From NCBI GenBank assembly GCA_022703445.1, contig JAKLDR010000010.1:1-64000 (forward strand): a DNA stretch of 64,000 bases, in the 5' to 3' direction. Below, piece by piece: positions 5,677 through 62,680 of this stretch. A model generated the notes under the pieces. The model saw only the letters and a program-made list of their open reading frames with translations. It ran no database searches and had not been told where the DNA came from. The translations under genes and the position numbers were made by a program. How positions within the stretch are numbered: position 1 is the stretch's first letter; every line of letters starts with the position of its first letter. This DNA is from Planctomycetota bacterium. GTDB lineage: Bacteria; Planctomycetota; SZUA-567; JAKLDR01.

Positions 5677-6623
5677 TGCTCATCCCCCGGCGGCATATCG
5701 AACATGGTGCACCTTGACTCTTCGCTGTTGTAGCTCTGGCAGGAGCGGCAGTCATTCCGTTCAGCGCACTGCCTCTTGAGCCGAGCCAACTCCATGCGGT
5801 AGCGGCGCAGACGTGACCGCGACGCGTCAGGGGACGGCGCCGGCTTGGCCTGGCCCCCGGCAGGCCTGGGTGGGGGGCCAAGCTCCCAGGTGTTGTAGTG
5901 CCCGCCGGAAGATGCACGGGTCAGCTCGGGGGGAAGCTTGAACACGGTCCGCGTTCCACAGTCGCCGGGCTTCAGGAGGCGCTCCTTTGGCGGGCGGAAC
6001 TCCTCCACGTGCGGCGGCTTCTCCTGCTGCGGCTTTTCGGGGACCGCCGCCGGCGGTCTGACCCGCTGGCGCTCGATCAACCGCTCCAGTTGGTCCTGGA
6101 TGCGTTCTAACTGCTCATCCTCGCTGGGCACGTTGCCTGAGATTGTCTGGCGTTCGGTGGCCTCCTCGACCATCGACATGAGCCGGCTGAGCGACGGGAC
6201 GGTATGTTCCTCTATGTGGTCCTCCAACCGGTCCATCATGAAGTCCTGCATCTCCTGCTTCTGGCTGAGTTCATCCGGGCCGGGCTCGGCGAAGAGTTCC
6301 TCGTTCAGGCGGCGCAGCGCCTGCGGGGCAGCAGGGCCAGCTGGTGCCAGCGCGCCACGTTCAAACGTCCCCTCCGGAAAGCCCTGGATCCCTTCGGGTA
6401 CGCCAGCCATGCTGTGGGGCAGCAGGTGCTCTGCCTCGACCTCGGCTGCGTAAGTCCGCATCTCCATGTCCGGCGTGAGGCCTATGGGGAAGAATTGGTC
6501 CTCGGGAGGCAGCGGGAAAGGGCCGGTTCCCGGAGGGCCGAGCTGATCGCCGGGCCAGCCCTGCTGCCCAGGATCGCCCAAGACGTCCTGCGGAACGAAG
6601 GCGCCATCGGGACCATACATCAT
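5673..6623 (-). CDS. Hypothetical protein with helical middle and C-terminal cysteine cluster
   Basis: A 316-residue protein coupled to the HerA-like ATPase by a 4-base overlap. The N-terminus is proline/glycine-rich and probably disordered. The middle (about 105-190) is acidic and helical (DELSQKQEMQDFMMDRLEDH, SEDEQLERIQDQLERLIERQ) and may form a coiled coil. The C-terminus carries CAERNDCRSCQSYNSEESRC, four cysteines that could bind a metal. I know no family for it. Its place directly before the ATPase suggests an accessory or adaptor subunit, which is inference. Confidence 0.7.
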   Translation of the reverse strand: MMYGPDGAFVPQDVLGDPGQQGWPGDQLGPPGTGPFPLPPEDQFFPIGLTPDMEMRTYAAEVEAEHLLPHSMAGVPEGIQGFPEGTFERGALAPAGPAAPQALRRLNEELFAEPGPDELSQKQEMQDFMMDRLEDHIEEHTVPSLSRLMSMVEEATERQTISGNVPSEDEQLERIQDQLERLIERQRVRPPAAVPEKPQQEKPPHVEEFRPPKERLLKPGDCGTRTVFKLPPELTRASSGGHYNTWELGPPPRPAGGQAKPAPSPDASRSRLRRYRMELARLKRQCAERNDCRSCQSYNSEESRCTMFDMPPGDEQ

Positions 6624-31624: not shown

Positions 31625-32754
31625 GCCTCTGACACCTCCACTGCCGCGCTCAGATATGACTCCCCGAGGGAGCGCAATCTCGTGCTGCTCAGCCCGCCCA
31701 GGTCTGCGTTGCGCAGAAAGGACGCGAACTCTGCGGAAAGGGGACCGATGGCCGCGGAGGCCGTGCGGCGGCCGGTTGACTGCGCAAGGCAGCGGTCAAC
31801 GCCGACATGGAGCGCAGCGCCGGCCATCTCCCGGATGCGGCGCTGGTCAAGTTCCACCCAGCTCTCCGGGGTTATTCTGTCCAGCGTGATATGGACGATC
31901 TTGCCGTCCAGCGGGGCAGCCGACGACAGCGCGGCTGAGATGGCCTCCATTATCTGGGGAGGATGCAGCCCCGTGCAATTGATGGGAGCAAGCTGCACAA
32001 TCTCGCGGCAGGATACGGGGCAGAAAGTGATCTCGCGGCTGGCCAAGTCCACCTCAACAAAGCCCTTTTCGTAGCCCGCCTCCTTTGTGTGGAAACGCTC
32101 CGTCGAGCCGCAGTAGCAGGCGTTGGCGCCGACCTTGAGGTGCTTGTGGTAATGCCCGAGCGCTATGTAGTCGAAACCGGACAGGGAGGCCAGAGCTTCC
32201 CTGCCAACGACAATCTCATTGAACTCTCCCAGCGAGTACCTCTCGCCTGCATTGCGCACACCACCATGCATGACAAGGACGTTGAACCGGGCGGCCGGAT
32301 CAGGCCGCACATCGCCCAACACAGCCCGCAGATGGTCCTCGGTGGGGAGGTGGGGAATGCAATGAACGGCCGTGTCACCGAAACGGAAGACGACGGCTTC
32401 GGACCGATAGGCTGACTTCACCCCAATCAGCTCCAGGGCCTCGAATATCGAACCGGAGGAGGCAAGACGTGGAGTGGAATGGTTGCCAGAGATCACTACT
32501 GTCGGGATCCCGGCGTCAACCAACTGCTTGAAGCCGGTGAGAGCCTTGACTATCGCCCGGTTGGATGGCCTTACAGTGTGGAAGAGATCGCCGGCATGTA
32601 TGACTAGACCCGGACGGCGGGACAGAATCTGGGCGATGACCGCGTCGAAAGAGTCATATACATCCTTCTCCCTCTGGTTCAGGCCTGTGGTCGCTTCAAC
32701 ACGGCCCAATTCGGCAAATCCAAGGTGGGTATCTGACAGGTGCACGACCTTCAT
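31621..32754 (-). CDS. mre11: Mre11/SbcD-type nuclease
   Basis: A 377-residue calcineurin-like phosphoesterase. Metal-binding motifs run in order: LSDTHLGF, HAGDLFHTVRP, ISGNHSTPRLAS, VLVMHGGV and ALGHYHKH. The enzyme trims DNA ends and works with Rad50, whose gene follows with a 4-base overlap. I start at ATG 32754 because GGGAGGA is seven bases upstream; a GTG 21 bases earlier lies inside that SD region. A minus-strand TATA-like GATAATCC lies about 50 bases before. Confidence 0.92.
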   Translation of the reverse strand: MKVVHLSDTHLGFAELGRVEATTGLNQREKDVYDSFDAVIAQILSRRPGLVIHAGDLFHTVRPSNRAIVKALTGFKQLVDAGIPTVVISGNHSTPRLASSGSIFEALELIGVKSAYRSEAVVFRFGDTAVHCIPHLPTEDHLRAVLGDVRPDPAARFNVLVMHGGVRNAGERYSLGEFNEIVVGREALASLSGFDYIALGHYHKHLKVGANACYCGSTERFHTKEAGYEKGFVEVDLASREITFCPVSCREIVQLAPINCTGLHPPQIMEAISAALSSAAPLDGKIVHITLDRITPESWVELDQRRIREMAGAALHVGVDRCLAQSTGRRTASAAIGPLSAEFASFLRNADLGGLSSTRLRSLGESYLSAAVEVSEA

Positions 32755-32938
32755 GCGCGTTCCTCCCTGTGGCACAGCATTCTTCTATCAGGAGTGGATT
32801 ATCGTCCCGGCAAATAGTGTGTCAACGCTTACCGGCAGGCGCGAAGAGCGGCCACGAACCTATGTATCTGATACAGGGGCGCGCCTTATAAGCGGTGATG
32901 AAGACGGCGATGCCCACTCCGCCTCCCCCGTCCGCTAA

Positions 32939-35900: not shown

Positions 35901-36656
35901 ATGAGCGTGAAAGACTCAACGCGGCTCGCCCTTGCGTTCCGGAGCGGGGACCGGTGCGCCCGGCCGGAGTGCGGGAAGCAGTTGTGCGTGGACGCTGCCG
36001 CAGCTTCCGGGCCGGCGCTGGTGGGCGAAGCGGCACACATAGCCGGAGAGAAGCCGAAGGCGGCCCGGTACGACCCGAACATGACGGATGAGGAACGCGA
36101 CCACTATAACAACCTGATCTACCTGTGCTGCAACTGCCACACGCTGATTGACAAGCCGGGGCAGGACCGGGAGTTCACGGTAGCCAAGCTCCATCAGATG
36201 AAGGACGGGCACGAGACGAAGGTGCGCGAGGCCCTGAACGAGGCCTTCGCGGAGGTCGGGTTCGACGAGCTGGCGTACGCCACCGAGTGGCTCGCCAGAG
36301 TGAAGCCGTCAGTTGCGGCCGGCGACTTCTGCGTAATCCCGCCGGAAGAGAAGATAAAGAAGAACGAGCTGTCTGAGCAGTCGCGGCTCACCATCGCCAT
36401 GGGCCTCGGCGTTGCGAAGGAGGTGCGCTCCTTCGTTGAGTCCGAGGCGCAGCTCGACCCGGACTTCCCCGAGAGGCTGAGGGCAGGGTTCCTGGAGGAG
36501 TACTACCGCCTGCGGAAGGAAAGCACCAGGGGCGACGCCCTGTTTGACCTCATGTGCAGGTTTGCCCAGAGAGGGTTCAAGGAGCAAAGCCGCCGTTCCG
36601 CTGGCCTGGCTGTACTGATATATCTCTTCGAGACGTGCGAGGTGTTTGAGAAATGA
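35901..36656 (+). CDS. HNH-containing component of an ABC-3C defence system
   Basis: A 251-residue protein. The HNH part (15-110) has CARPECGKQLCVD, VGEAAHIAGEKPKAARYD, NNLIYLCCNCHTLIDK and an end KLHQMKDGHE. A second helical domain follows (about 140-251). HNH proteins of this kind accompany ABC-3C systems (three-component conflict systems with an ABC/SMC-like ATPase), as the probable nuclease effector. It is leaderless from TATA at 35870 and overlaps the next gene by four bases. Confidence 0.83.
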   Translation: MSVKDSTRLALAFRSGDRCARPECGKQLCVDAAAASGPALVGEAAHIAGEKPKAARYDPNMTDEERDHYNNLIYLCCNCHTLIDKPGQDREFTVAKLHQMKDGHETKVREALNEAFAEVGFDELAYATEWLARVKPSVAAGDFCVIPPEEKIKKNELSEQSRLTIAMGLGVAKEVRSFVESEAQLDPDFPERLRAGFLEEYYRLRKESTRGDALFDLMCRFAQRGFKEQSRRSAGLAVLIYLFETCEVFEK

Positions 36657-36880
36657 TACTGCCGACCAAGCACATACCTGCCGAGCGCGCTTTGGTAGGT
36701 GTCGGGGCGGTTCTGCTGCAGCATCTGGAAAGGCCGCGCACGGTGTCGGACCTGTGGGAGAAGGTGAAGGATCATGAGGCTGTGGGTAACTTTGAGCGGT
36801 TTGTCCTCGGCCTGGACCTCCTGCACATGCTCGGGGCCGTCAACCTCTCAAGGGGGTTGCTTGTGAAGGTGAGCGGATGA
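36653..36880 (+). CDS. ABC-3C middle component
   Basis: A 75-residue protein starting MILPTKHIPAERALVGVGAV and LLQHLERPRTVSDLWEKVKD. This matches the small middle component (type 6) of ABC three-component systems and resembles a winged-helix fold. It lies between the HNH gene and the ATPase with 4-base overlaps on both sides, so the three are co-translated. Confidence 0.82.
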   Translation: MILPTKHIPAERALVGVGAVLLQHLERPRTVSDLWEKVKDHEAVGNFERFVLGLDLLHMLGAVNLSRGLLVKVSG

Positions 36881-38622
36881 TACACGGACTCAGCGCCAAC
36901 AAACGAACGTTCAAGGAGGTGTCGTTTTCGCCCGGCATGAACGTGGTTCTCGCAGACCGGACGGAAGCGGCCACAATGAAGGATACGCGGAACGGCCTGG
37001 GCAAGTCGACCCTCCTGGAAATCATCGACTTCTGCCTTGGCGCGGAGATTGATGAAGGGCAGGGGCTCGGAGTCAAGGCCCTCGAGGAGTGGGCGTTCAC
37101 GCTGGACATCACCATCGGCCCCAACAGGGTACGGGTCACGCGGAGCACGAAGAACCACAAGAAGGTGTCCATCGAGGGGCCCGCAGACGGATGGCCCGTG
37201 AAGCCGGAATGGGACAAGCATCTCGGGGCCAGCTGCCTTGCACTGAAGGACTGGAAGGATGTGCTGGCCTCTTCCATGTTCGGGTTGCCGCTCGTCTTTG
37301 AGGAGAAATACCGGCCAACCTTCCGCAGCCTGATTTCATACTTCGTCCGCCGCAGCAACGATGCCTACAACGATCCCTTCCACCATTTCCGGAACCAGAA
37401 GGAAGCGGATATCCAGGTCAACAACTGTTTCCTGCTGGACTTAGCCTGGCAGAAAGCCAACGAGTGGCAGCTGCTGAAGGACCAGCTCGACGGCATCAAC
37501 GCCGTGCAGAAGGCGATGAAAAGCGGGGCGCTCCAGGGCGTTGCCGGCACCATCGGCCAACTGGAAGCAGAGAAGGTCAGAATCGAGGGCCGGGCCAAGG
37601 AAGAGCGGCAAGCCCTGGATGAGTTCCGGGTGCACCCGCAGTACAGACAGATACAGGATGAGGCCAACGACCTGACCAAGCGCATGCAGGAGCTTGTGAA
37701 CGCCAACGTGGCCGACCGTGGCCGGCTGCGGATGTACGAGACGGCCGTCGCGGACGAGCAATCCCCTTCTGACGACCGGATCGAGGCGCTCTTCCGGGAA
37801 GCCGGGGTCGTGTTCAAGGATGGGGTGAAGGCAACCCTGGCCGCCGCCCGCGATTTCCACAAGCGGATCATAGGGAACCGCCGGACCTTCCTTGGCGCCG
37901 AGATGGAGCGCCTGAGAAGGCGTATCGATGGCCGGGAGGAAGCCATCAAGGCCTTGTCGGATCAGAGGTCAGGGCTCATGTCGATTCTCAAGACGCACGG
38001 GGCGCTTGATGAGTTCGCGAGGCTCCAGGAGCAGCACGTCAAGACGCGTGAACGGCTGGAGCAGTTGAGCACACGCATATCGGAGATGAAGGATGTCGGC
38101 AAGAAGAAGAGAGACCTAAAGGTTGCGCAGGCCGAGCTGCAAAGATCCGCCGAAGCGGACTATGAGGAGCGCCGGGAACGCTGGGAGCAAGCGCTTCACG
38201 TGTTCAACGAGAACTCGCAGGCCCTGTACAAGTCACCGGGCAACCTGATTATCAACGTGGCGGAGACGGGCTATAAGTTCGGCGTGGAGATACAGGGTAG
38301 CGGCAGCGAGGGCATCGGCAAGATGAAGATCTTCTGCTATGATATGATGCTCGCGGAGGTTCTGGACAAGAAGCGCCCATGGCCTGGCTTTGTCATCCAC
38401 GACAGCCTCATTTACGACGGCGTGGATTCGCGGCAAAGGGCGCTGGCACTGGAGCTGGCTGCCAAGAAGGCACAAGAGCACTCGTTCCAGTACATCTGCA
38501 CCCTCAACTCTGACATGATTCCTGAGGCGGACTTCTCCCCGGGGTTCAAGCTTGATTCTTACGTTCGGTTGAGGCTGACCGACAAGGACGCCGGCGGCAG
38601 CCTGCTGGGCATCAGGTTCTGA
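36877..38622 (+). CDS. ABC-3C ATPase, DUF2326 family
   Basis: A 581-residue SMC/Rad50-like ATPase. Walker A is DTRNGLGKSTLLEIIDFCLG (36-55). Coiled-coil arms follow, then a DUF2326-type C-terminus with a Walker B-like FVIHDSLIYDGVDSRQ (about 508). The family works in ABC-3C defence, presumably sensing invading DNA and licensing the HNH nuclease. DNA-damage sensing is inferred from the Rad50-like shape. It is the last gene of the three-gene operon. Confidence 0.88.
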   Translation: MIHGLSANKRTFKEVSFSPGMNVVLADRTEAATMKDTRNGLGKSTLLEIIDFCLGAEIDEGQGLGVKALEEWAFTLDITIGPNRVRVTRSTKNHKKVSIEGPADGWPVKPEWDKHLGASCLALKDWKDVLASSMFGLPLVFEEKYRPTFRSLISYFVRRSNDAYNDPFHHFRNQKEADIQVNNCFLLDLAWQKANEWQLLKDQLDGINAVQKAMKSGALQGVAGTIGQLEAEKVRIEGRAKEERQALDEFRVHPQYRQIQDEANDLTKRMQELVNANVADRGRLRMYETAVADEQSPSDDRIEALFREAGVVFKDGVKATLAAARDFHKRIIGNRRTFLGAEMERLRRRIDGREEAIKALSDQRSGLMSILKTHGALDEFARLQEQHVKTRERLEQLSTRISEMKDVGKKKRDLKVAQAELQRSAEADYEERRERWEQALHVFNENSQALYKSPGNLIINVAETGYKFGVEIQGSGSEGIGKMKIFCYDMMLAEVLDKKRPWPGFVIHDSLIYDGVDSRQRALALELAAKKAQEHSFQYICTLNSDMIPEADFSPGFKLDSYVRLRLTDKDAGGSLLGIRF

Positions 38623-44084: not shown

Positions 44085-45179
44085 TCAGTTCTGCTTGAGC
44101 TTGTCCAGCTCCGGCTGCAGGACCGTGATCATGGCCTGCATCTTCTCCACGGCCCAGTCCATGAGATCGTCGGTGATCTTGCCTTCCTGTTTCTCCATGT
44201 AGATACGCGCCCAGTTCTTGCCCCAGGCGTCCTGAATGACAACTTTCCCACCGAGCGCTTCCTCCAGGACGCGCTTCTGCTTGGCACACGCCGCGAAGAA
44301 TGGCTGATTGGCTTCTTTGCTTCCCTTCTCGAAGTGCAGTTCCACCCCGAAGCTGGCGCGTGGACGGCCGTGAAACCCCCACTCGAAATGCACCGAGCCG
44401 ATCCCGGTCGGGATCTGATAATACGCCCTCGGCGTAGGCGTGGCGTAATCCCCCGGCAGCTTCTTCTTTAGCGCTTCAGCGCACCGCGTGAAGAACTGGA
44501 CGTATTCCGTCTTCGTCACCGACTGGGTGTGCTCGGCCATCTCCTTCCGCTCGGCCTTGACCAGGTATTCCTCGGCCTCGGGAAGCGGGATGAGCACGGA
44601 TGAGTTGACGGCCACGGCGTCGTCGGAAAGCTGGTAGAGGTCCAGCTTGACGCACCGGATGTCCATGCCGAACTTGCGCAGCCACAGGACCGAAGCCGTG
44701 ACCTCCGGCCTGAATTCCTTGGACACGAGTATGATGCGCGGCCGGTCGCTCAGTTCCTCGAAATCGTCGCTCTCTATGAAATCGAGTATCTTAGCCCTCG
44801 CCTGCTCGGGCGTGGCCGCGCGGCCTTTCTGCTTCAGGTACTTGGCGTGCATGGCCGCCAGGTCATCCAGTCGGTGCGTGGAGCAGTAAGCCGCGTACTT
44901 GATGGCCTGGAGGTCCACGTTCTTGCCGCTGTCGTCGCGCTTCAACTCGATGACGACGAGGTTGCCTTCCTTGTCGATGGCGAGCAGGTCAAGGCGTTCG
45001 CTGGTCTTGTCGAACTGGTCGTACTCCGTGGTGATGATCAGCAGCTCCTCGCCGAGGATGTCGGGGTTCTGCTCCACCCATTTCTCTATGTCCTGGCGCT
45101 CCAGCAGGCCGTGCGCCTTGAACTCCGTTTCCTTGCACGGGGCGAGCGTCTTCTTCCGCTTATCATAGGTGTAGAGCAT
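44085..45179 (-). CDS. NucS-like PD-(D/E)xK nuclease with DUF4268
   Basis: A 364-residue protein. Residues about 25-150 match the NucS C-terminal nuclease: DIEKWVEQNPDILGEELLII, ERLDLLAIDKEGNLVVIELK (Asp and Glu-x-Lys) and DLQAIKYAAYCS. The C-terminal half (about 215-364) is DUF4268-like (PTGIGSVHFEWGFHGRPRAS). Such nucleases often join defence loci. AGGAGG is six bases before ATG 45179 and AGATATTT lies about 50 bases before. It starts a two-gene run with the PLD gene. Confidence 0.83.
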   Translation of the reverse strand: MLYTYDKRKKTLAPCKETEFKAHGLLERQDIEKWVEQNPDILGEELLIITTEYDQFDKTSERLDLLAIDKEGNLVVIELKRDDSGKNVDLQAIKYAAYCSTHRLDDLAAMHAKYLKQKGRAATPEQARAKILDFIESDDFEELSDRPRIILVSKEFRPEVTASVLWLRKFGMDIRCVKLDLYQLSDDAVAVNSSVLIPLPEAEEYLVKAERKEMAEHTQSVTKTEYVQFFTRCAEALKKKLPGDYATPTPRAYYQIPTGIGSVHFEWGFHGRPRASFGVELHFEKGSKEANQPFFAACAKQKRVLEEALGGKVVIQDAWGKNWARIYMEKQEGKITDDLMDWAVEKMQAMITVLQPELDKLKQN

Positions 45180-46011: not shown

Positions 46012-46830
46012 TCAGTTCGCGTTGTAGCCGTGCGGAACGCGCGTGAGCAGCAGGTCTTTCCAATGCGACTCCCTGCGCAGAATGTCATCCGTGCTGGCGT
46101 GCGTATCAGCAATCTCCAGGACTCCGAACTGGAAGTTGTCGGCGTAGGTGTCGCCTTCTTTCCTGAGAAGCTCTCTAAGTTCAGAGTTGCCGCCGTGGCC
46201 GGTTGCGGAGTACGCGCACCATCGGCTCCAGATTCCCTCCTTGCCCGTGGCGCTTCCCACATAGAGCTTCCCTGTCCGCCTGTCGGCAATCACGTAGACT
46301 CCGGCGACATTAGCCAGGGCTGCCCGCCAAGATTCGATGTTCTGTTTGACCACGATGTCAAGGTGCTGCTTGGTTAGCATTGTTGATGAGTAGCCTGGGA
46401 ATTCCGCGACACGAAGCCTCTCCGGCCGTATTTCGGCGACCTCGATGGCGTGGCTCCAATTCTCGCCCAGAAGATACGACTGCCGGCCTGTTCGCTCAAA
46501 GTGAACAATGAGCCGGCCGTCGAGGGCGTTTGGCCCATCGCGACGGCTCAAACGGTACTTGTACAGCTTCTGCTCTTTCATCCACTCGCAACCCTTGGAG
46601 TTGTGGACGCCGGCAAACAGCCAGTGGTTGGTTGCGGGAAGGGCTATGAGCGAAACGACAAGTAGTCTCCCGAAGTTCCTCTTGGTTTGCCACGATTGCC
46701 ATTCGTCGAACCGCCCGGCGAGGTATACGTCCAGAGGGTTCTCTTCGCCATTCCAGCATGCGAGGTGGATCTTGCATTGGTCTGGAAGGACCTCGGCGTC
46801 AAGAAGTTGAAGAATCTGGAAAAGCTGCAT
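46012..46830 (-). CDS. GIY-YIG nuclease-family protein
   Basis: A 272-residue protein. The GIY-YIG domain (about 178-272) has AGVYVIADRRTGKLYVGSAT, IWSRWCAYSATGHGGNSELR and FGVLEIADTHASTDDILRRE (Arg and Glu). The N-terminal 170 residues are probably a target-recognition domain. Related proteins act as restriction nucleases. ATG 46830 has AGGAGG upstream. No methyltransferase lies with it, so a different protection must exist or it targets modified DNA. Confidence 0.8.
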   Translation of the reverse strand: MQLFQILQLLDAEVLPDQCKIHLACWNGEENPLDVYLAGRFDEWQSWQTKRNFGRLLVVSLIALPATNHWLFAGVHNSKGCEWMKEQKLYKYRLSRRDGPNALDGRLIVHFERTGRQSYLLGENWSHAIEVAEIRPERLRVAEFPGYSSTMLTKQHLDIVVKQNIESWRAALANVAGVYVIADRRTGKLYVGSATGKEGIWSRWCAYSATGHGGNSELRELLRKEGDTYADNFQFGVLEIADTHASTDDILRRESHWKDLLLTRVPHGYNAN

Positions 46831-47869: not shown

Positions 47870-48316
47870 TTATTGGGTTTGGGTTGCCTCGGGTACGAGC
47901 TTCGCGAATCGGGCCATGAGTTCGGCCGATTCCTTCACGAACTCACGCAGTTCTTTCTTGCTCAGTTCCTCAGAAGCCGCAGGCCCTTTGGGTTTATGCC
48001 GCACTATCAGAACGGACTCGGTTCCCCTGTCGTTCGGATCATCGCAAACAATCGGGTTGTGTGCCACTAGGTTCCGACGATTGCCAATGCGGTGGAGATC
48101 GTCGCACAAGGACTTCACTTCAGCAGGACTGAGGCGTGATCGTTCGGAAAGCAACGCACGGAGGACATCAATGCGTCTGGCAAGTGGCGATTTGAGCACG
48201 TTGGCAGATAGAAGCTTGTCGGTTGCGAGCGCGCGAATTGCGTTGTTTGTGAGCAACTCCAGGGCACCACAGTGGTGAATGAAGAAACCGATGAGGGTGG
48301 GGAAATCGGTCACCAT
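47870..48316 (-). CDS. HEPN-like protein
   Basis: A 148-residue helical protein. HRIGNRRNLVAHNPIV carries the R-x4-H pattern of HEPN ribonucleases and relatives. LRALLSERSRLSPAEVKSLC and KKELREFVKESAELMARFAK are its other helices. HEPN proteins cut RNA in toxin-antitoxin and defence systems, or act as scaffolds. It starts 46 bases past the stop of the MBL-B gene and may be the last gene of that operon. Confidence 0.62.
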   Translation of the reverse strand: MVTDFPTLIGFFIHHCGALELLTNNAIRALATDKLLSANVLKSPLARRIDVLRALLSERSRLSPAEVKSLCDDLHRIGNRRNLVAHNPIVCDDPNDRGTESVLIVRHKPKGPAASEELSKKELREFVKESAELMARFAKLVPEATQTQ

Positions 48317-48362
48317 GGCAAAGACCTATCAACTATTGGCACAAGCCCGTCTCTGACCCGAT

Positions 48363-49187
48363 TCATTGGTCCACCGCAAGATTCCACCCGCCATCGTCCT
48401 TGAGCGTAATCTTCATGTTGTGCTTGTCTTCGGTTGTGAAGACCTTGTTCCCCGCGGACGAGCCTGTGGAGTACTTGGTGTATAGATCAATGGCCTTCGC
48501 ATCTGGAAGGCCGTGTTGGTTCGGTCCGACTGAAACCAGCGTCATGGCTGGGTTGATCTTCTTGATGTGGTCAACGTAGTAGTTCTTGGTGTCCGCCGGG
48601 TCGTCGAAGAACGTGACGGACCCGTGATGCGCCCCGACCAAGAGCGCGGACTGCAGGTCATTGCCATTGTAGTTGGTCAGTATCTTCTCCTTCCACGGCC
48701 GGTAGTTGGTGTCCGCAGCAAACATCACTGAACAACCCACCGTCCTGTACTCGACTTTGATGACGGCACTTTGCTCGTTGGGGTCAGTGTAGTCACTCCA
48801 CTTGGCACTCATGCACCGGTATTTCGCGTCCCCGAACGTGTAGAAGTTGCGGGCTTCTATTGTTCTCCCCGGGAGCATCCGTTTCAGGGTCATGTACGCC
48901 AGGTACTCAGGGGAGTCAGTCGTCGTGCCCGGGACATCGGTGTCCCAGATGGCCTTGATGGGGTTCTGGGCATGCAGGTCTGTGATTCCCCGCATGTGGT
49001 CGGCGTCGCGGTGACTGTTGATGAAAACGTCGATGGATGTCCCGTAGCCAAGAATTCGCCGGACGTAGCCCAGGACATCGTTGCTGTTGTCCGATGTGAT
49101 GTTGCAGTCGATTACGACCCTCGTCCCGTCGGGGTTGAAGAGTATGGCCATGTTGCCACAGCCGACATCAAGTATGTGTATGTCCAT
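48363..49187 (-). CDS. MBL-fold hydrolase B (ComEC-like)
   Basis: A 274-residue metallo-beta-lactamase-fold protein. FINSHRDADHMRGITDL has HxDxDH, LDVGCGNMAILF begins it, and LLVGAHHGSVTFF supplies a later His. This set resembles the soluble MBL domain of ComEC, which is thought to digest the DNA strand left outside. I start at ATG 49187; a TTG six bases before is possible. It lies 9 bases downstream of the membrane gene. Confidence 0.82.
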   Translation of the reverse strand: MDIHILDVGCGNMAILFNPDGTRVVIDCNITSDNSNDVLGYVRRILGYGTSIDVFINSHRDADHMRGITDLHAQNPIKAIWDTDVPGTTTDSPEYLAYMTLKRMLPGRTIEARNFYTFGDAKYRCMSAKWSDYTDPNEQSAVIKVEYRTVGCSVMFAADTNYRPWKEKILTNYNGNDLQSALLVGAHHGSVTFFDDPADTKNYYVDHIKKINPAMTLVSVGPNQHGLPDAKAIDLYTKYSTGSSAGNKVFTTEDKHNMKITLKDDGGWNLAVDQ

Positions 49188-49196
49188 GTGCAACCC

Positions 49197-49895
49197 TCAC
49201 TTGGCCTGGGTTTCGATGTCAGCATTCACACCGACGCGGCCTTGTTGACTAGGCTGCGACTCCTCCGTTAGCACGTTGGTCACAAATCTGACTCCGTAAT
49301 TGCGCGCAGCCATCGCAAGCGCCACGTATTGCAGGACGAGAAAACCACCGTAGCCAGCGACAGTCTTCCAACTAGCCGGGGAGAAGAGTGCTCCGGCCAG
49401 GAACGCCACCGCGAATATGGCGGACAGGCCAGCCATGTCGCGGGTCAAAAGGTACATCCGGTGCGCATGCAAGACGGTCAACTTGTCGGCGTGCGCCCGG
49501 TACATCTGATACCACAGCGCGTTTTGCTCTTTCGCGGCCCTGGGCAGCTTGCCATGCTTCGCAGTCAGCGCGTCGCAATCAATCCGGGGATCGTTATGCA
49601 TGTGCCGGGAAAAGGCGCGACACCCCGGTAGTGGACACCGCCAACGCCAAAACACGAGCCGCGCCTTGGCCGTGTCGCCGAGGAGCCCGTTCAGGACTAT
49701 CGTTGCCAGCGGGACGCACAATGCGATAAGCCCGTCTTTGGCAGACACCTTCTGCCAGAAGTGCTCAATGGCAGAGCCACTCAGTTCTGCGCTGATGTAC
49801 ACGCCCAGGAAGGCTGCCAAGTTGACGCCGATGAACAGCCACAGATAGTGAGCATTGGCCTTCTTCAGGTTGGTGACTTGTTTGTCTTCAGGCAT
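49197..49895 (-). CDS. Four-segment membrane protein
   Basis: A 232-residue protein with segments near 16-38 (HYLWLFIGVNLAAFLGVYIS), 52-72 (DGLIALCVPLATIVLNGLLG), 153-172 (MAGLSAIFAVAFLAGALFSP) and 176-198. The loop between the second and third carries CPLPGCRAFS and HNDPRIDCDALTAKHG, which could bind metal or an MBL partner. It sits between two ComEC-like MBL genes, as if supplying the membrane part that ComEC has in one chain. No family known. Confidence 0.65.
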   Translation of the reverse strand: MPEDKQVTNLKKANAHYLWLFIGVNLAAFLGVYISAELSGSAIEHFWQKVSAKDGLIALCVPLATIVLNGLLGDTAKARLVFWRWRCPLPGCRAFSRHMHNDPRIDCDALTAKHGKLPRAAKEQNALWYQMYRAHADKLTVLHAHRMYLLTRDMAGLSAIFAVAFLAGALFSPASWKTVAGYGGFLVLQYVALAMAARNYGVRFVTNVLTEESQPSQQGRVGVNADIETQAK

Positions 49896-49906
49896 GGATA
49901 GTCTCC

Positions 49907-51004
49907 CTATTCCTCTACCTCGTCAAAGAGAGGGAAGGCATTTGACGGCACCCATCCGGCCCGGGCAGGAGCGTTGTGTGAGTGACACACGGTCTTCCCG
50001 GAAGTGGCGTGGACCGGGGCGCCGCGGCGGAGGAAAGCATTCATGACCTTCTTGGCGGGATGTTTCGGGGCTCCTTCTGGTGATACGGAGACGAAGGCGG
50101 TCTTCTTCTTTTCCTGCCCCTGCAGCTTGGGACCGACCAGTGTATTCAGCAAGGTCGGGCCGATGTTCCGCCGACTACCATGATGGGGAACCTGGATGGA
50201 CTTGAGCGTCGCAAAATCGAAGCCCTCTTGTTGCAGACGCGAGATAGCTTCGGTCAGGGCGGGGATCCCGGCATCCGCAGTGAACAACATGGATTGACCG
50301 TCAACAGTGAGGAGAAGGACCGCGCTCGAATTGTTTTCTGCCGTCGTTTCACCGAAGTCGTCCAGGGTCTCAATCCCGAACGTCTCCGCGACCTTCTTGA
50401 CGACCTCCTTTGCCTCTGCTGCGAATCTTGCCAGAGCGGCCAGCTTCTGCTCGGGCTCGGGCGTTCCTCTATAGCCGGGCAAGAGGCTCTTGTAGTAAGC
50501 TTCGGTGGGTCCGATGACGCGCAAGGCGCCGTTGAAGCCGTTGAGCCCAGAGAACGGTTCCACGATGCGGATGCCCTTCCGTGTAGCGAGCTTCTCCAGG
50601 TCGCGGGCCTGATCGAGCGACTCAATGAGTGCCTGTCTGACACCCGCAGCGGTAACCCGGCTGTCCTCGAAAAGATGAGAGATGTCGTTCGTATGGTTCC
50701 ATGGCTGGTGCATGAGGAGACAACCAACCTCCAATTGCTCCAGAACAACGCTCAGGCCCGAGACGTGGTCAGCGTCAGGGTGCGTACATACTACGCAATC
50801 GACACGGCCGGTCTGGTAGAACTCCTTGATATGCTTGACCAGTTCCTCTCCGTTGCTCTTGAAGCCGCCGTCAATCACGACAACGGTTTGTTCACGCGGG
50901 TTCCGGAACAGGGAGCCGAACCGCATGGTGATAGCGTCTCCGCTCTTCTCGCCGTCGCCTACCGGCAGGAAATCGACTTCATAACCGACTTGATTGGCAT
51001 CCAT
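49907..51004 (-). CDS. MBL-fold hydrolase A (ComEC-like)
   Basis: A 365-residue MBL-fold protein. VCTHPDADHVSGLSVV has HxDxDH; SSAVLLLTVDGQSMLFTADA and IQVPHHGSRRNIGP are the later strand and second His motif. The long middle (about 115-215) is helical. ATG 51004 has GGGAGAG upstream. First gene of the MBL / membrane / MBL / HEPN run. The two MBL proteins differ enough to have separate roles. Confidence 0.82.
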   Translation of the reverse strand: MDANQVGYEVDFLPVGDGEKSGDAITMRFGSLFRNPREQTVVVIDGGFKSNGEELVKHIKEFYQTGRVDCVVCTHPDADHVSGLSVVLEQLEVGCLLMHQPWNHTNDISHLFEDSRVTAAGVRQALIESLDQARDLEKLATRKGIRIVEPFSGLNGFNGALRVIGPTEAYYKSLLPGYRGTPEPEQKLAALARFAAEAKEVVKKVAETFGIETLDDFGETTAENNSSAVLLLTVDGQSMLFTADAGIPALTEAISRLQQEGFDFATLKSIQVPHHGSRRNIGPTLLNTLVGPKLQGQEKKKTAFVSVSPEGAPKHPAKKVMNAFLRRGAPVHATSGKTVCHSHNAPARAGWVPSNAFPLFDEVEE

Positions 51005-56341: not shown

Positions 56342-59300
56342 CTAAGGGCCGGAACGCTCTTTTCCGGACTTCTCCGAAGTCCCAAACATCCTCCCCACGT
56401 ACCCCTCATCCTCGAAGAACAGAATGTGCGCCTCCGCGAACCTCTCCCGCGACCAGTCGCCGGTCCCGTAGTAGTCACGCAGTGTGTCGTAGGGTGTGGC
56501 CGAAACGATGACGGAGTCCAGCTCCACGTCCCTGAGCCCGGCCCTTGCGCCCCAGGCCTTCGACAGCTCCCTGAGCCGCAGGTGGAGCTTCACCTTGTCG
56601 TCGGTCCAATAGGTCTTCTCGCGCAGCATCCCGTGGGGCTCCACGAAAACGACGCGCTGGGCACGGCCTTCCTTGATCCAGAGGATGAAGTCGGGGAAGA
56701 ACCCCTCGTTCTCGAAGAAGCCCACGCCCCGGCCGCGGCTGAGGTTCCTGAGCAGGAAGACCTCCTTGCCGGCCAGCGACTTCCCGGCCTCGCGCCGGCA
56801 GAAGTCCCGCAGCCCTTCCACAAACCGCCGCTCGCTTTCGTTCAGGCCCGGCGGGTCGCTCTTTACCTTCTCACCGCGCTCCACCAGCAGCGGCTGGTAC
56901 AGGTGCCGGTCGAAGTGGACGTTGGGCAGCTCGCGGACTTCGGAGCAGTAGAGCTGCTCGCCCTCGGCTATCAGCTTCTGGACGGCCTCGATGAGCTCCC
57001 GCTCCGCGCGGTCGATGCAGACCGTGTAGTCGCGGAAGTTGGCGTCGCTCTTGTCGAGGGCGGCGTAGACCATGTTCTTGGAGTCCCACCGCTCCTTGGA
57101 AACGTAGTAGAACTTCTCCACGTACTTGCGGAGGATGGTCAGCACGGCCTCGGTCAGGAGCGCGGTGTCGGCAAAGGACTGCGGCCTGGCGACGCCCTCC
57201 TCGGCCACCAGCCGGTAGAGCCTCGGCTCCTCCGCGGCGAGGATCTCCCGCAGCACCTGCGGCCGTATCACCAGGTTGGAGAAGCCCTTCTGTTCCTTGT
57301 AGTCCATCACCACCAGGTAGGCGCGGTTCCAGTCCACCAGGTCCAGACTCTCGGCCGGTATCTGCAGCTCCGTGCCGGCGTGCATGGACTGGGCCTTGAG
57401 CCCGCCCGCCCCGCTCCGCATGGATTCCACCTTGAGCGACATGTCCACCGAGACCTTCGCGGCAGGGTCAGGGGTCAGGACGATGTCGCACTCCAGGGCG
57501 AAGTCGCGCTCCGGCGGGACTCGGGGGACCAGCAGATTCTTGCCGAGGAACTCCGCGTTCGCCCTGATGGGCAGGGGCAGCTCCACCTGGCCGAGCGTCT
57601 CCACGCCCTCGCGCTCCAGGTACTCCCGGAACTGCGCCATGTAGTTGGCGCGCACGGCGAAGATGTTCAGGATTTCCAGCAGGCGGATGTGCGCCGGGTG
57701 CTCACCGTCGAGCGCGGTGCTGCGCTTGAGACCGAAGCCAAGGCCGCGCAGCCGCACGCCGCGGCCGAAGAGTTGGATGATCTCAGAACCCTCGGTGCGG
57801 CCAATGTTCAGCAGGCCCATGTTGGACACGCGCCAGCTGTTCCAGCCCTCCATGAACTTCTTGGCGCCGATCAGGACATTGATGGTGGCGTCAGGCCTGT
57901 TGATGCCCGCGAACAGGGAAGAGGATATGGCGTCATCCTCCATCTGTATCCCGGCGTCGTCCTCCTCCACCAGTTTCTTGAAGCTGGCCGTGTCGCCGAT
58001 GTAGATGAGCCCGAAATAGTTCTCGGCGCCGCCTACCTTGAGGCCGAGCTCGCCGGGCCCGCTCTTCACGTCGCACATGTGGAGCCCGCCGCCGGCCGGC
58101 GCGTGGAAGACGGTCGCCAGTATGTCCCGGTAGATGGCGTCCGGGTCCTGGCCCCCGCCGCGGAGGTACTCGAACCGCTCGGCGAAGACATCGCCGCCGG
58201 CATCGTCACGCAGGCCGCTCTTGCCCTGGATGAGCCTCTCGATGGCGCGCACGGACCAAGCGCGCTTGTTCTCCAGGAAGCGGTGGAGGAAGCGGGCCAC
58301 GGTCAGCACGTCGCTCCGCGCCTTCCCGCTCTCCTTGTAGACCGCGTTCACGCTGCTGCCCACGAACACCCACAGGGGCATCTCGATGTTGTAGGGCCGC
58401 AGTACCGCCGACTGCTCGGCGTAGCAGCGCTGCTGCTCGTAGAAACTGAGGAGGTTGCCGAGAAGCAGGGTGTCGGTGTCATCCTCCTTCGTCTCGTCGC
58501 GAAGGTTCAGGATATGGAAATCCTTGCCGAAACCGTTGCCGTGGAAATACTTGTAGGAATAGTCGAACGCTATGGCCTTGCCGTACTCGACAGTCAGATC
58601 GTCGTTCTTGGTGGCGGTCAGCGCCTGGCCGAAGGTGGCGCTGTACTCGAACGTGAACCCCGTTTCCCCCAGCCGGTCGCGGAACTTGCGCCAGGCCTCG
58701 CCGCCGGAACCCTTGTGCCCCTCATCGACGAATATCAGGTTGTTGCCCTGGAAACTCTCCACGTCCACGCTGACACCGCCGCCGCGCTTCTCCTCGACCA
58801 GCTTGGTTATCTCTATGACGCGGACGACGTTCTTGTCTCCCGACCAGAGCCCGCTCTCATCGATGCTGAAACGTGCGCACGGCACGCCCGAGGCCTCCAT
58901 CTCGGCTATGTGCTGGTCTGTGAGGCCTTCGTTGGGCGTGATGAGCAGGATGTTATCCAGGGGCTGTTTGTTGTAGTGAAGGAACTGTCGGTAGTTGATG
59001 TGCATGACTAGCGTCTTGCCGCTGCCGGTGGCCATCCAGAAGGCCAGCTTGGTCAGGTCGGCCTCGGCAAAGAGCAGATCCTGCGCGTCGCCCGGTTCCT
59101 TCCCGGCGTTGCGCTGCCGGACGAAGTCGTTCAGGCAGGCCAGCAGATCGGACGGCCGGCTGAAGTACCAGTCCAGGTATATCTCCGTGTAAAGGACGGC
59201 CAGGTACTGGAAGTAGCGTAGCTTGATCGGCTCCGGCCGCCGGGTATTGATGGCGTTCAAGTGCGCCCGGATGTTGTCGTCGTAGCGGCCCAGTACCTCG

Positions 59301-59527
59301 GCGGGTATGCGCACCTTGTCGCCGCGGCCCACAAGCCGCTCGTGGACGAAGCTGCGGCCGTAGGAATCAAACCCCTCGCCGGCGTCTTTCATGTCTGCCA
59401 GGAGGTCCCGGTTGCTCTTGTAGCCGAACAGGCTGTTCAGCCAGGCCAGCAGGACAAGGCGGTTCTCCAGCTTGACGTAGGTGCTGGTGCCGCCGTTTAC
59501 CGCCGGGCTGGCCGCGCGCCGCGCCAT
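56342..59527 (-). CDS. Type III restriction enzyme, Res subunit
   Basis: A 1061-residue helicase-nuclease. FWMATGSGKTLVMHINY (Walker A, about residue 165) and NLIFVDEGHKGSGG (DEGH-type Walker B) mark the helicase; EGWNSWRVSNMGLLNIGRTE and GRGVRLRGLG are later helicase motifs. The C-terminal nuclease (about 925-960) has FFPDFILWIKEGRAQ and VVFVEPHG (D...E). Res cuts DNA after ATP-driven travel from sites left unmethylated by Mod. It lies three bases after the mod stop and in phase with it. Confidence 0.92.
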   Translation of the reverse strand: MARRAASPAVNGGTSTYVKLENRLVLLAWLNSLFGYKSNRDLLADMKDAGEGFDSYGRSFVHERLVGRGDKVRIPAEVLGRYDDNIRAHLNAINTRRPEPIKLRYFQYLAVLYTEIYLDWYFSRPSDLLACLNDFVRQRNAGKEPGDAQDLLFAEADLTKLAFWMATGSGKTLVMHINYRQFLHYNKQPLDNILLITPNEGLTDQHIAEMEASGVPCARFSIDESGLWSGDKNVVRVIEITKLVEEKRGGGVSVDVESFQGNNLIFVDEGHKGSGGEAWRKFRDRLGETGFTFEYSATFGQALTATKNDDLTVEYGKAIAFDYSYKYFHGNGFGKDFHILNLRDETKEDDTDTLLLGNLLSFYEQQRCYAEQSAVLRPYNIEMPLWVFVGSSVNAVYKESGKARSDVLTVARFLHRFLENKRAWSVRAIERLIQGKSGLRDDAGGDVFAERFEYLRGGGQDPDAIYRDILATVFHAPAGGGLHMCDVKSGPGELGLKVGGAENYFGLIYIGDTASFKKLVEEDDAGIQMEDDAISSSLFAGINRPDATINVLIGAKKFMEGWNSWRVSNMGLLNIGRTEGSEIIQLFGRGVRLRGLGFGLKRSTALDGEHPAHIRLLEILNIFAVRANYMAQFREYLEREGVETLGQVELPLPIRANAEFLGKNLLVPRVPPERDFALECDIVLTPDPAAKVSVDMSLKVESMRSGAGGLKAQSMHAGTELQIPAESLDLVDWNRAYLVVMDYKEQKGFSNLVIRPQVLREILAAEEPRLYRLVAEEGVARPQSFADTALLTEAVLTILRKYVEKFYYVSKERWDSKNMVYAALDKSDANFRDYTVCIDRAERELIEAVQKLIAEGEQLYCSEVRELPNVHFDRHLYQPLLVERGEKVKSDPPGLNESERRFVEGLRDFCRREAGKSLAGKEVFLLRNLSRGRGVGFFENEGFFPDFILWIKEGRAQRVVFVEPHGMLREKTYWTDDKVKLHLRLRELSKAWGARAGLRDVELDSVIVSATPYDTLRDYYGTGDWSRERFAEAHILFFEDEGYVGRMFGTSEKSGKERSGP

Positions 59528-59530
59528 GTG

Positions 59531-62500
59531 CTAGTTCCCCCCGTTGCCCGCGGCTATGGGCGCGAACATCCTGGCCTTGAAGACAGGGTCGAGGCTCTTT
59601 GCCCCGGGTATGGTGCTGTCGCTGTTGACGAAGACATCGTCGGCGCCCGCCGCCAGCTTCTGCTCGGCGACGAACTTCTTGTCGCGCTCGAAATCGGCCG
59701 CCTTCCAGCCCTTGGTCTCGCGCCAGATGACCGCGACCGTGCGGCTGTCCACGGTGCCGCGGTACACAAGATAGGCGCGGTCCTTGTCGCTGACGGCCTT
59801 GCGGGACTGGACCCGCAGCCCGAGCAGGTAGTTGAACGTCTCGGGCAGGTCCACCGGCTTGTCCCTGGTCTGCCCGTCCTCGGCGATCAGGAGTTTGTAC
59901 GCGAAGGGAGTCGCCAGCTTCTCGACGTTGAGGAGTGTGTCGCTCTCCTTGGTCTCCCACTCCAACATGTAGTTCAGCAGGTAGTCGTCAAAGCCGGTCA
60001 GCAGCTTCTGGCCTCCCTTGCCGTTGAAGGCAATGTTGTTCAGGGCGTCCTCATACGACTCGATGCGCAAGTACCTGATGATCCGCGGAGACCGGGTGAC
60101 TTCATTCTTTGCGGCTGCCCTGCTAGGTTTGCCATCCTTCCACTCGGGCGAGAAGATGGCCTTCTTAAGGCGCGGCAGAAGAATCGTGTCGAAGTAGGAA
60201 TCCACTTCAACGAGGATGAACCGGCGCCGGCCTCCATCGGAGCGATTGAGGTTCATCACCGCGTGACCTGTGGTTCCGGAGCCGGCGAAGTAATCGCCGA
60301 CCCAAGCGGCAGTGTCATTGGCAAACTTGCAGACGTACTCAATGAGCCCGATCGGCTTGGGGTAGGAGAAGGTGAAGCCCATATCCGCCAGCTGGCCAGC
60401 CATGCGCTTCACGGTTCCGACGTTCCTGATCACGGAAAGAACGTGGCTCTGTTTTGCGCGGGTCTTGTAGCAGTATATGGCACCGGTGTGGGTTATCTTG
60501 AACCAGGTCTCTAATCCTTTAGAGTCGCGAATGGGCTGGCATTTGTTTGCAGTGAACTCATCCAACAGGAAGAGGGAACTCCAGCCGCTGAAGGCGCGCG
60601 CCTCTCGCGTCAACTTCCCGCCCTTGACCACGACCTTATCCCGCAGGTGGGGCCATTCGGAATCGCGCGCCGGGATTTCGCCCTCGTCGAACGACGCCGG
60701 GAATCCTTTGGGGAGCAGCACTTCGCTGGGAGGATTGGCTGGCCCGTTCTTTGTGATTGAGTTCTCTATCGTATCATTGTAGAGCTTGCTCTCGCCTTCA
60801 ATGTCAGGCGCGATCACTTGCGCATGAGGATAGGATCCCTCGTCTTTGCAGAAGGCAAGGAGGTACTCATGGTTGCACTTGACCTTGCTTTGATTGTCGA
60901 TATTCCCCTCGTTGTTCCAGACAAAGTTCGCGAGAAGGTTGTCGCGTCCAAAGATGTCGGCAAGGGCCAGTCTCAAGCGGTCAACTTCGTGGTCGGCTAT
61001 TGAGCACGTGAGCAATCCGTCCGTCGCCATCAGCGCGCGACCAAGAATGCCGCGATCCTGCATCATCGCCAACCACGAGGAATGCTGGTAACCATCCTTG
61101 TACAGGAAGTCATCATTCCCGGTGTTGTAGGGAGGGTCAAGGTACGTGCACTTAACCTGTCCGCGGTATCTCTCCATGAGCAGGTTCAGCGCCTGGAAGT
61201 TCTCGCCCTTCACTAGGAGGCCGTCGGTCTTCTCATCCAGGTCCGGGATGGCGGCCAGCAGGCGGTCGGTGAACTCGCGGCTAAAGTGCCTGGTGTCCAG
61301 CACCAGGGTTGGGTGGGCCTTGAGGAAGACGACGCGGCGGTCCTTCTTGGTCTTGGCGGCCGCGCTGAAGATGTTCTTCTCTTCCTCGTCGATGTGGAAG
61401 AGCTCCTTCCATTCCTCCCACTGCGCGTCGCAGGCAGCGATGTCACCGTGGAACTCCGCCGGGACCGTGGACATGGTAATGCAGTAGTGGGTCTCGGTGA
61501 TGAACTTACGCTTCTCGAACAGCTTCTTCTGGAAGTTCTCGACCTGGGCCAGGAAGGCGATGACCTTGAGGCCGATGGCCTTCATGACGCGCATGACCTG
61601 GAACCAGGCCTCCGCCCGGCCCTCTCCCGCGGCCTCCAGGTCGTCGATGTTCAGGACTTCGTTCTTGAGGTAGAAGTCCAGCTCCCGCTCCAAGAAGCCC
61701 TTGAGATCCTTGTGGACGAAGAAGTCCGAGGTGTTCCGCCGCGTGTACTGGCGGAGGTGATGCTCCAGGCAGGTGACCGGGTTGCCGTCGCCGTCCTTGC
61801 GCCGCTCGGCCGAGAGGGCCGCCACGGCCTTGTCTTCCTTCGCGAAGTGCTTCGGGACGGCTTCCAGCGCCTCGGCGATGATGGCATCCTGCTGGTTCTT
61901 CTTGCCGTACCTGATTTCCTCCTGCGCGGTCAGCGGGCGGTACTCGAAGGGGATCACGACCTGCTTGGCCTTTTCGTCGAAGGCGGCCCCCTTGACCACC
62001 GGGACGAAGAAGCGCTTGTCGCCCTTGACGTTGTCCTTCTCCACGTCGGCCGCCTGGAGCTTGAAGTGGACCGTCAGGCCGCGCGAAACAAAGGTGTAGT
62101 CGGTGAAGTACTCCCCGGTCTTGACGTAGTACTGGTCCTTGTTGGCCCAGTGGAGGCAAACCTCCTCGCCGTTGTAGGGGACGGCGTACTTCTCCTTTCG
62201 GGAGTAGCGGCGCTTGGACATGAAATCGCCGGCGTCGTAGTAGCGGCTGAAGAACGTGTACAGGTGGTTGAAGATGGCCGCCTCCACAGCCGGGCGCGGC
62301 TTGGCGCCGTGCGCGGTGCTCCGGAGAGCGACGTACTTCTTGGCGATGTCGGCCAGCTTGCCCTTTTGCTCCAGCAGCGGCCGGTGCTTTTCCGCGAGCT
62401 CACCCTTGCCGTCGAGGGCGTCCTCTCCCAGGAGCTCCTTCAACTGGCCGGCCAGCTCCTGCAGCTCCTTGGCGGCCCCGGCCTGCTCGGCCACGGCGCC

Positions 62501-62680
62501 GGACTCCAGTTCCTTTGCCACGGCGGCAGGCAGATCCTTCTCGATGAACTTGTCGAGGACGTCGCGCTTGTGGTTCAGTATCCGGTAGATGCCGAAGTCC
62601 AGGTCCGCGCTCTCGAACTGGAACAGCCGGCGCAGGAGCTCCTGGAACTTCTTGCGGTTCTCTGTCACGATTTCAGGCAT
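59531..62680 (-). CDS. Type III modification methyltransferase, Mod subunit
   Basis: A 1049-residue adenine methyltransferase of the beta class: the catalytic YLDPPYNTGNDDFLYKDG (motif IV, about residue 520) lies before the SAM-binding VGDYFAGSGTTGHAVMNLN (motif I). It is longer than most Mod proteins, with a large N-terminal domain (about 1-470) that begins NRKKFQELLRRLFQFESADL. Mod reads the target and methylates one strand; it works with Res. ATG 62680 has GAGAGGA upstream. A TATA-like CTTATATT is about 140 bases before. Confidence 0.92.
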   Translation of the reverse strand: MPEIVTENRKKFQELLRRLFQFESADLDFGIYRILNHKRDVLDKFIEKDLPAAVAKELESGAVAEQAGAAKELQELAGQLKELLGEDALDGKGELAEKHRPLLEQKGKLADIAKKYVALRSTAHGAKPRPAVEAAIFNHLYTFFSRYYDAGDFMSKRRYSRKEKYAVPYNGEEVCLHWANKDQYYVKTGEYFTDYTFVSRGLTVHFKLQAADVEKDNVKGDKRFFVPVVKGAAFDEKAKQVVIPFEYRPLTAQEEIRYGKKNQQDAIIAEALEAVPKHFAKEDKAVAALSAERRKDGDGNPVTCLEHHLRQYTRRNTSDFFVHKDLKGFLERELDFYLKNEVLNIDDLEAAGEGRAEAWFQVMRVMKAIGLKVIAFLAQVENFQKKLFEKRKFITETHYCITMSTVPAEFHGDIAACDAQWEEWKELFHIDEEEKNIFSAAAKTKKDRRVVFLKAHPTLVLDTRHFSREFTDRLLAAIPDLDEKTDGLLVKGENFQALNLLMERYRGQVKCTYLDPPYNTGNDDFLYKDGYQHSSWLAMMQDRGILGRALMATDGLLTCSIADHEVDRLRLALADIFGRDNLLANFVWNNEGNIDNQSKVKCNHEYLLAFCKDEGSYPHAQVIAPDIEGESKLYNDTIENSITKNGPANPPSEVLLPKGFPASFDEGEIPARDSEWPHLRDKVVVKGGKLTREARAFSGWSSLFLLDEFTANKCQPIRDSKGLETWFKITHTGAIYCYKTRAKQSHVLSVIRNVGTVKRMAGQLADMGFTFSYPKPIGLIEYVCKFANDTAAWVGDYFAGSGTTGHAVMNLNRSDGGRRRFILVEVDSYFDTILLPRLKKAIFSPEWKDGKPSRAAAKNEVTRSPRIIRYLRIESYEDALNNIAFNGKGGQKLLTGFDDYLLNYMLEWETKESDTLLNVEKLATPFAYKLLIAEDGQTRDKPVDLPETFNYLLGLRVQSRKAVSDKDRAYLVYRGTVDSRTVAVIWRETKGWKAADFERDKKFVAEQKLAAGADDVFVNSDSTIPGAKSLDPVFKARMFAPIAAGNGGN

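Follow-up and report, generated by a model that had tools for sequence, protein, structure and literature searches.

Two ComEC-like MBL hydrolases around a four-TM protein in a planctomycetotal defense island: variant form of a recurrent candidate anti-phage module of bacteria

The question raised by this locus is what may be done by a cassette in which two ComEC-like MBL hydrolases flank a small membrane protein, with a HEPN-like gene behind them, and whether this arrangement corresponds to any system already described. The cassette lies in the stretch of 64,000 nucleotides analyzed here (the window), from contig JAKLDR010000010.1 of a Planctomycetota bacterium, and consists of four intact ORFs on the minus strand, in the following order:

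49907..51004, minus strand, MBL1, a ComEC-like MBL hydrolase of 365 aa
49197..49895, minus strand, TM, a four-TM protein of 232 aa from an uncatalogued family
48363..49187, minus strand, MBL2, a compact ComEC-like MBL hydrolase of 274 aa
47870..48316, minus strand, HEPN-like gene, encoding 148 aa with an RNLVAH motif

The first-pass annotation gave this order with gaps of about 10 and 46 bases, and the ORF coordinates agree, with 11 bases between MBL1 and TM, 9 between TM and MBL2, and 46 between MBL2 and the HEPN-like gene. The GC by codon position is gene-like in all four ORFs, and plus-strand genes lie on both flanks of the cassette, which therefore reads as one operon. The start listed for MBL2, a TTG at 49193, sits just upstream of a better ATG.

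The MBL fold is recognized in both hydrolases by Pfam (PF00753/PF12706), and the nearest solved chains recovered for both by a search of the PDB are ComEC MBL domains (7e-9 for MBL1). The two enzymes are clearly distinct from one another (29% over 62 aa in BLASTP), which confirms the earlier description of two different ComEC-like MBLs, encoded by separate genes beside a membrane protein. The elements of the metal site, HxDxDH ... D ... HHGS, are complete in both. The distance between the HxDxDH and HHGS motifs is 199 residues in MBL1, versus approximately 126 in the ComEC MBL chain 9ic4, and this insertion of some 70 extra residues represents a candidate lid. The corresponding distance in MBL2 is 128 residues, with no insertion or lid, and the protein is collinear with 9ic4. 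In the PADLOC models, MBL1 matches PDC-M48B over its full length (3.4e-90; profile positions 5-356 of 357) and, more weakly, the MBLs of Lamassu (LmuA, 3.8e-26), DRT (RTasMBL, 4e-19), and Avs1 (Avs1a, 1.5e-13).

The ComEC-like MBLs of Hachiman and Avs1 are latent DNases, which are released by proteases and abort infection (PMC12799240). Given the analogy with these MBLs and the insertion relative to ComEC, MBL1 is probably a latent DNase. It shares a ComEC-like MBL fold, an intact site, and the presence of extra sequence relative to ComEC with the gated pro-nucleases of the Avs1a, HamM, LmuA-type, and CanC kinds (PMC12799240), whereas the cassette differs from these systems in having a membrane protein and no trypsin or caspase partner. 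No match to a trypsin-like or caspase protease was found among the four genes and the tested neighbors, and an M48 protease found 2.8 kb from the cassette is in a separate gene. In ComEC/Rec2, which provides the closest solved MBL domains, an MBL is also combined with membrane parts, but the parts of the cassette are separate genes, its membrane protein has four TM segments where ComEC has a large competence channel, and the context is not one of competence. Neither MBL is fused to a membrane domain of the ComEC kind, and the cassette contains no Pfam competence domain.

The four-segment architecture originally described for the membrane protein stands, and takes the form of a 2+2 arrangement, in which two TM segments, a basic helical part (residues about 75-153), and two further TM segments follow one another. 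The AlphaFold (AF2) model, which used an alignment built without plasmid rows, is confident (pLDDT 88.8, pTM 0.82), and contains two long membrane helices, the helical middle, and then two further membrane helices. The middle part has 15 K/R versus 6 D/E residues, and is thus predicted to be cytosolic; the majority of the residues that are invariant in the 40-sequence alignment A4 (K77, D102, R104, W128, R152, and D153) also fall within it. The protein has no match in Pfam, PADLOC (E<=1), or PHROG, its sole NCBIfam match is weak and far under the cut-off, and a fold search of the PDB and BFVD returned no match at E<=0.001. By these comparisons, it is a member of an uncatalogued family of membrane proteins.

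The searches recovered relatives of the TM protein from 21 plasmid records, 36 genome contigs, and 2 viral contigs, which range over the Pseudomonadota, Bacteroidota, Acidobacteriota, Verrucomicrobiota, Omnitrophota, Patescibacteria, Bacillota, and a nanohalarchaeal bin. The contig scan used a five-row alignment, whereas genomes were scanned with two short peptide patterns and are hence under-sampled. The family is rare in its own phylum (one of 392 genomes), and the G139 match (L003) from a search of the phylum was discarded as false, being a glycosyltransferase-like ORF. A ComEC-like MBL gene is present in 49 of the 51 scored TM loci, mostly in an adjacent position, with related loci being counted as if they were independent, and on this raw count the association appears to exceed chance. 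One of the two loci with no MBL, L018, sits at an E1/JAB fragment. On plasmids, the relatives of MBL1 are adjoined by a 2+2-TM protein in most of the inspected loci.

The TM gene is flanked by an MBL on either side in L017, L031, and L052, the last of which also has E1 genes, and four two-MBL loci, in three distinct versions, were seen outside the window; L031 is a tandem pair of identical copies, a unit that L032 seems to represent as well. The closest is L017, from an Omnitrophota genome (MBL1 67% and TM 60% identical), in which the third gene encodes a strongly diverged MBL, missing the first metal histidine and barely alignable with MBL2. MBL-TM is, then, a conserved unit, and the MBL-TM-MBL order recurs, but neither includes the HEPN-like gene; the four genes do not co-occur as a set in any other locus searched, although the MBL-TM-MBL core does. 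The defense role first suggested for the cassette is considered to be probable.

The duplication in L031 (7070-14675) involves a unit of approximately 5 kb, which contains the MBL-TM-MBL genes plus NUDIX-like and other genes, and lies directly after a serine recombinase. The first metal histidine has been lost from the short MBLs adjoining the TM gene in L012, L017, L019, L026, L031, L037-L043, and L054, which present the variant motifs NxDxDH, GFDDDH, and SWDADH, with DxDH and HHG being retained; these proteins may be pseudo-enzymes, or may have an altered metal site. On two different plasmids (L004 and L068), the MBL/TM or 6A operon is closely followed, on its downstream side, by DUF2235 genes.

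The HEPN-like label is the weak point of the earlier description. The gene does encode the Rx4-6H motif of HEPN proteins, in the form RNLVAH, but the profile match is not significant (Pfam HEPN_RiboL-PSP, PF18735, E 0.1), and the single-sequence model (pLDDT 46) is not interpretable. No relatives were found on 72,556 plasmids, in the 392 genomes of the phylum, or in phages and viral contigs, and the gene is absent beside every other TM locus scored. It was thus rejected as a conserved fourth component, and its proposed cooperation with the MBL and TM genes finds no comparative support in these searches. A prophage protein of HEPN-like appearance (L053:4697-5260) has no similarity to it and was also rejected. 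The gene is probably a local addition, accessory to the module. Its motif and its location on the same strand, 46 bases downstream of MBL2, would fit a system in which toxicity comes from a HEPN-like RNase, with the MBL-TM-MBL genes serving as sensor or antitoxin, but with the fold unproven and the gene missing from every other MBL-TM locus, such a system is very improbable.

The arrangement had been thought to match no described system, and this claim has to be withdrawn on two counts. PADLOC lists an MBL plus a small TM protein as the candidate PDC-M48 (PDC-M48A being the TM protein and PDC-M48B the MBL; PADLOC candidates are predictions), and descriptions of MBL operons adjoining an E2-E1-JAB gene go back to 2006 (PMC1779556). 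In the literature collection searched, no paper was found under the names “6A-MBL” and “PDC-M48”. The cassette resembles PDC-M48 in that MBL1 is a full-length PDC-M48B (3e-90) with an adjoining small 2+2-TM protein, but differs in its second MBL, in its MBL-TM-MBL order, and in the absence of a PDC-M48A match to its TM protein. The PDC-M48A models do work, given the match in Citrobacter (L063, 4e-44); in the bacterium's own genome, PDC-M48A was not found, and the control gave no match there either. As the A subunit was looked for and not found, the cassette is not assigned to PDC-M48, although by analogy it may work in the same way, through an MBL plus a small membrane protein.

The second comparison is with the 6A-MBL operons (NCBIfam NF058523/NF058524), in which the window TM family and the MBL1 family occur as the third and fourth genes. 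About half of the TM loci contain the 6A-MBL genes, in the form of an MBL and an E2-E1-JAB fusion, which score above the NCBIfam cut-offs in the loci tested (1e-126 and 5e-166 in L005; 2e-207 in L012); in L026, E2, E1, and JAB are separate genes instead of a fusion. MBL2 is a distant 6A-type MBL, which matches the NCBIfam 6A-MBL enzyme at 1.2e-13, under the cut-off of that model (on NF058524, 50.9 bits for MBL2 and 29.1 for MBL1, neither of which reaches 220 bits), and PDC-M48B at 2e-9. In the tree, it groups with an MBL from Hymenobacter, the gene of which lies before an E1 gene (support 96/90, on long branches). The window, however, has no E2-E1-JAB gene, and a search of the genome, which is 81% complete, found no such gene (cap2_3) above the cut-off (positive control L005, 5e-166), so that the cassette is not assigned to 6A-MBL.

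The cassette may also be a decayed or reduced 6A-MBL locus (related to type II CBASS) from which the E2-E1-JAB gene was lost, with MBL2 as the old 6A MBL and MBL1-TM as the effector pair. This is suggested by the 6A-MBL-like character of MBL2 and its grouping with an E1-operon MBL, by the nearest TM relatives after L017 (L018, L019, and L026), all of which are in E1/JAB operons, and by the presence of conjugation genes, which changes about ten times on the TM tree under parsimony, at least four of these changes being forced by supported branches, in a tree that rests on a short protein, with several long branches. Such a loss is nevertheless improbable, given that all the ORFs of the cassette are intact and tightly spaced, that L017 keeps the MBL-TM-MBL order with no E1, that MBL2 is on a long branch, and that the E2-E1-JAB search of the genome was negative.

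Across further operons of this kind and MBL1 loci, the genes that accompany the MBLs vary considerably. Besides members of the window TM family, they belong to a second TM family in L056, L058-L060, L065, L067, L068, L070, and L072, several of which are beside MBL1 rather than E1, to a Csx27-like family in L062 and L069, and to the PDC-M48A kind in L063 and L064. In a Fibrella plasmid (L071, 2210-6964), a 6A-type MBL and an E2-E1-JAB gene are followed by a patatin-like phospholipase, and in Acinetobacter (L061), the slot is filled by a relative of MBL1, with no TM gene. Given the diversity of the proteins that it accepts, this slot is best interpreted as one for effectors, and the four-TM protein looks like an interchangeable effector module. 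The hhalign comparison of the window-type TM with the L065-type is collinear but weak (probability 10%), that of the L065-type with the Csx27-like pair is also weak (27%), and that of the window-type TM with the Csx27-like pair returned nothing; given these weak or absent matches, common descent of all the 2+2-TM partners in a single superfamily is not claimed.

The phospholipase also lends weight to the main alternative, in which the four-TM protein is itself the killer, oligomerizing and breaking the membrane like the TM effectors of CBASS, while the MBLs sense or regulate, perhaps through the degradation of a messenger or of a ligand that inhibits the TM protein. A relative of the TM protein (L005) weakly matches the CBASS 2TM effector model (E 1e-3), and the TM proteins of the related slot weakly match Csx27 (E 1e-4 to 8e-4). 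These matches are marginal, however, the Acinetobacter locus indicates that an MBL can act alone in the same slot, and both MBLs of the window retain complete DNase-type active sites, which leaves this alternative rather unlikely.

The setting of the cassette is a dense defense island, which includes a PLD nuclease gene and the following features:

56342-62680, minus strand, type III restriction enzyme and methyltransferase pair (PADLOC 1e-153 and 4e-173)
46012-46830, minus strand, UzuA (Uzume; C-terminal GIY-YIG; 2e-59), shortly downstream of the cassette on the same strand
44085-45179, minus strand, PDC-S11 protein (9e-100), shortly downstream of the cassette on the same strand
35901-38622, plus strand, PDC-M68A (HNH/SAVED_HNH-like) and PDC-M68B, a candidate defense pair (2e-92 and 1e-208)
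29222-32775, minus strand, SbcC/SbcD-like pair, the ATPase of which also matches Lamassu LmuB and mad3

Relatives are found behind an HsdS-like gene (L017), behind Shedu (L050), on plasmids, and on a contig that is prophage-like by inspection (L053). On the Vibrio plasmid pFP31 (L057, MPF_F), an MBL1-TM pair (4501-6203) lies between traD and traG, in the opposite orientation. The F plasmid carries traS/traT in the region between these two genes. The plasmid copies, including this one, and the ComEC kinship of the MBLs accord with the initial suggestion of an attack on incoming DNA at the membrane, in entry exclusion or plasmid competition. The module is, however, just as common in chromosomal islands, on prophage-like contigs, and in E1/JAB operons, and accessory genes often insert near tra genes; this role is unsupported and quite improbable. 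Together with the reduced 6A-MBL locus and the HEPN-centered system, it is less likely than either a DNase module or a membrane-breaking TM protein.

Several 6A-type loci also contain WYL or HTH + ImmA/IrrE genes, which resemble the regulators CapW (WYL) and CapH+CapP (HTH + ImmA/IrrE), known to control killing immune operons (PMC13373217).

The reading preferred here, at somewhat less than an even chance, is that of a membrane-tethered MBL DNase module, which would provide defense against phages by abortive infection. The four-TM protein would span the inner membrane and hold the MBL enzymes through its conserved basic helical part, which would face the cytoplasm; MBL1 would be a DNase of the ComEC/Avs1a/HamM type, kept latent by its insertion, and MBL2 its compact, lid-less partner. 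Upon infection, the membrane subunit would sense or relay a signal, and the MBL site would be opened, leading to the cutting of membrane-proximal DNA (that of the phage, and probably also that of the host), which would, in turn, abort the infection. This reading is favored by the MBL-TM association (49 of 51 loci, mostly adjacent), the matches of MBL1 to the MBLs of PDC-M48, Lamassu, DRT, and Avs1, the regulators of the CapW and CapH+CapP kinds at some loci, the defense setting (type III RM, UzuA, PDC-S11, and PDC-M68, and the HsdS-like and Shedu genes of the relatives), and the third slot of 6A-MBL, which holds a 2+2-TM protein, a patatin, or MBL1 alone. Against this reading, the gated-nuclease model needs a protease for activation, and none was found in the operon; the patatin in the slot fits a TM protein that itself attacks the membrane equally well; and MBL-fold enzymes have many substrates.

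The three-gene core of the cassette can thus be seen as one version of a candidate module against phages, which is found repeatedly across bacteria and is often linked to ubiquitin-like tagging. More tentatively than the DNase reading itself, it is conceivable that modules of an MBL and a 2+2-TM protein, with interchangeable membrane families, have been repeatedly coupled to and uncoupled from a ubiquitin-like operon, and that the four-TM family of the window is the uncatalogued third component of 6A-MBL, which, with two MBLs, works alone as a membrane-tethered DNase. The six invariant residues of the TM alignment provide ready mutants for testing. If the proposal is true, the missing membrane component would be named for two candidate systems that have so far been separate, PDC-M48 and 6A-MBL, ubiquitin-like tagging in these operons may control a membrane-bound effector, and membrane tethering would join protease-gated activation as a way of holding ComEC-like DNases.
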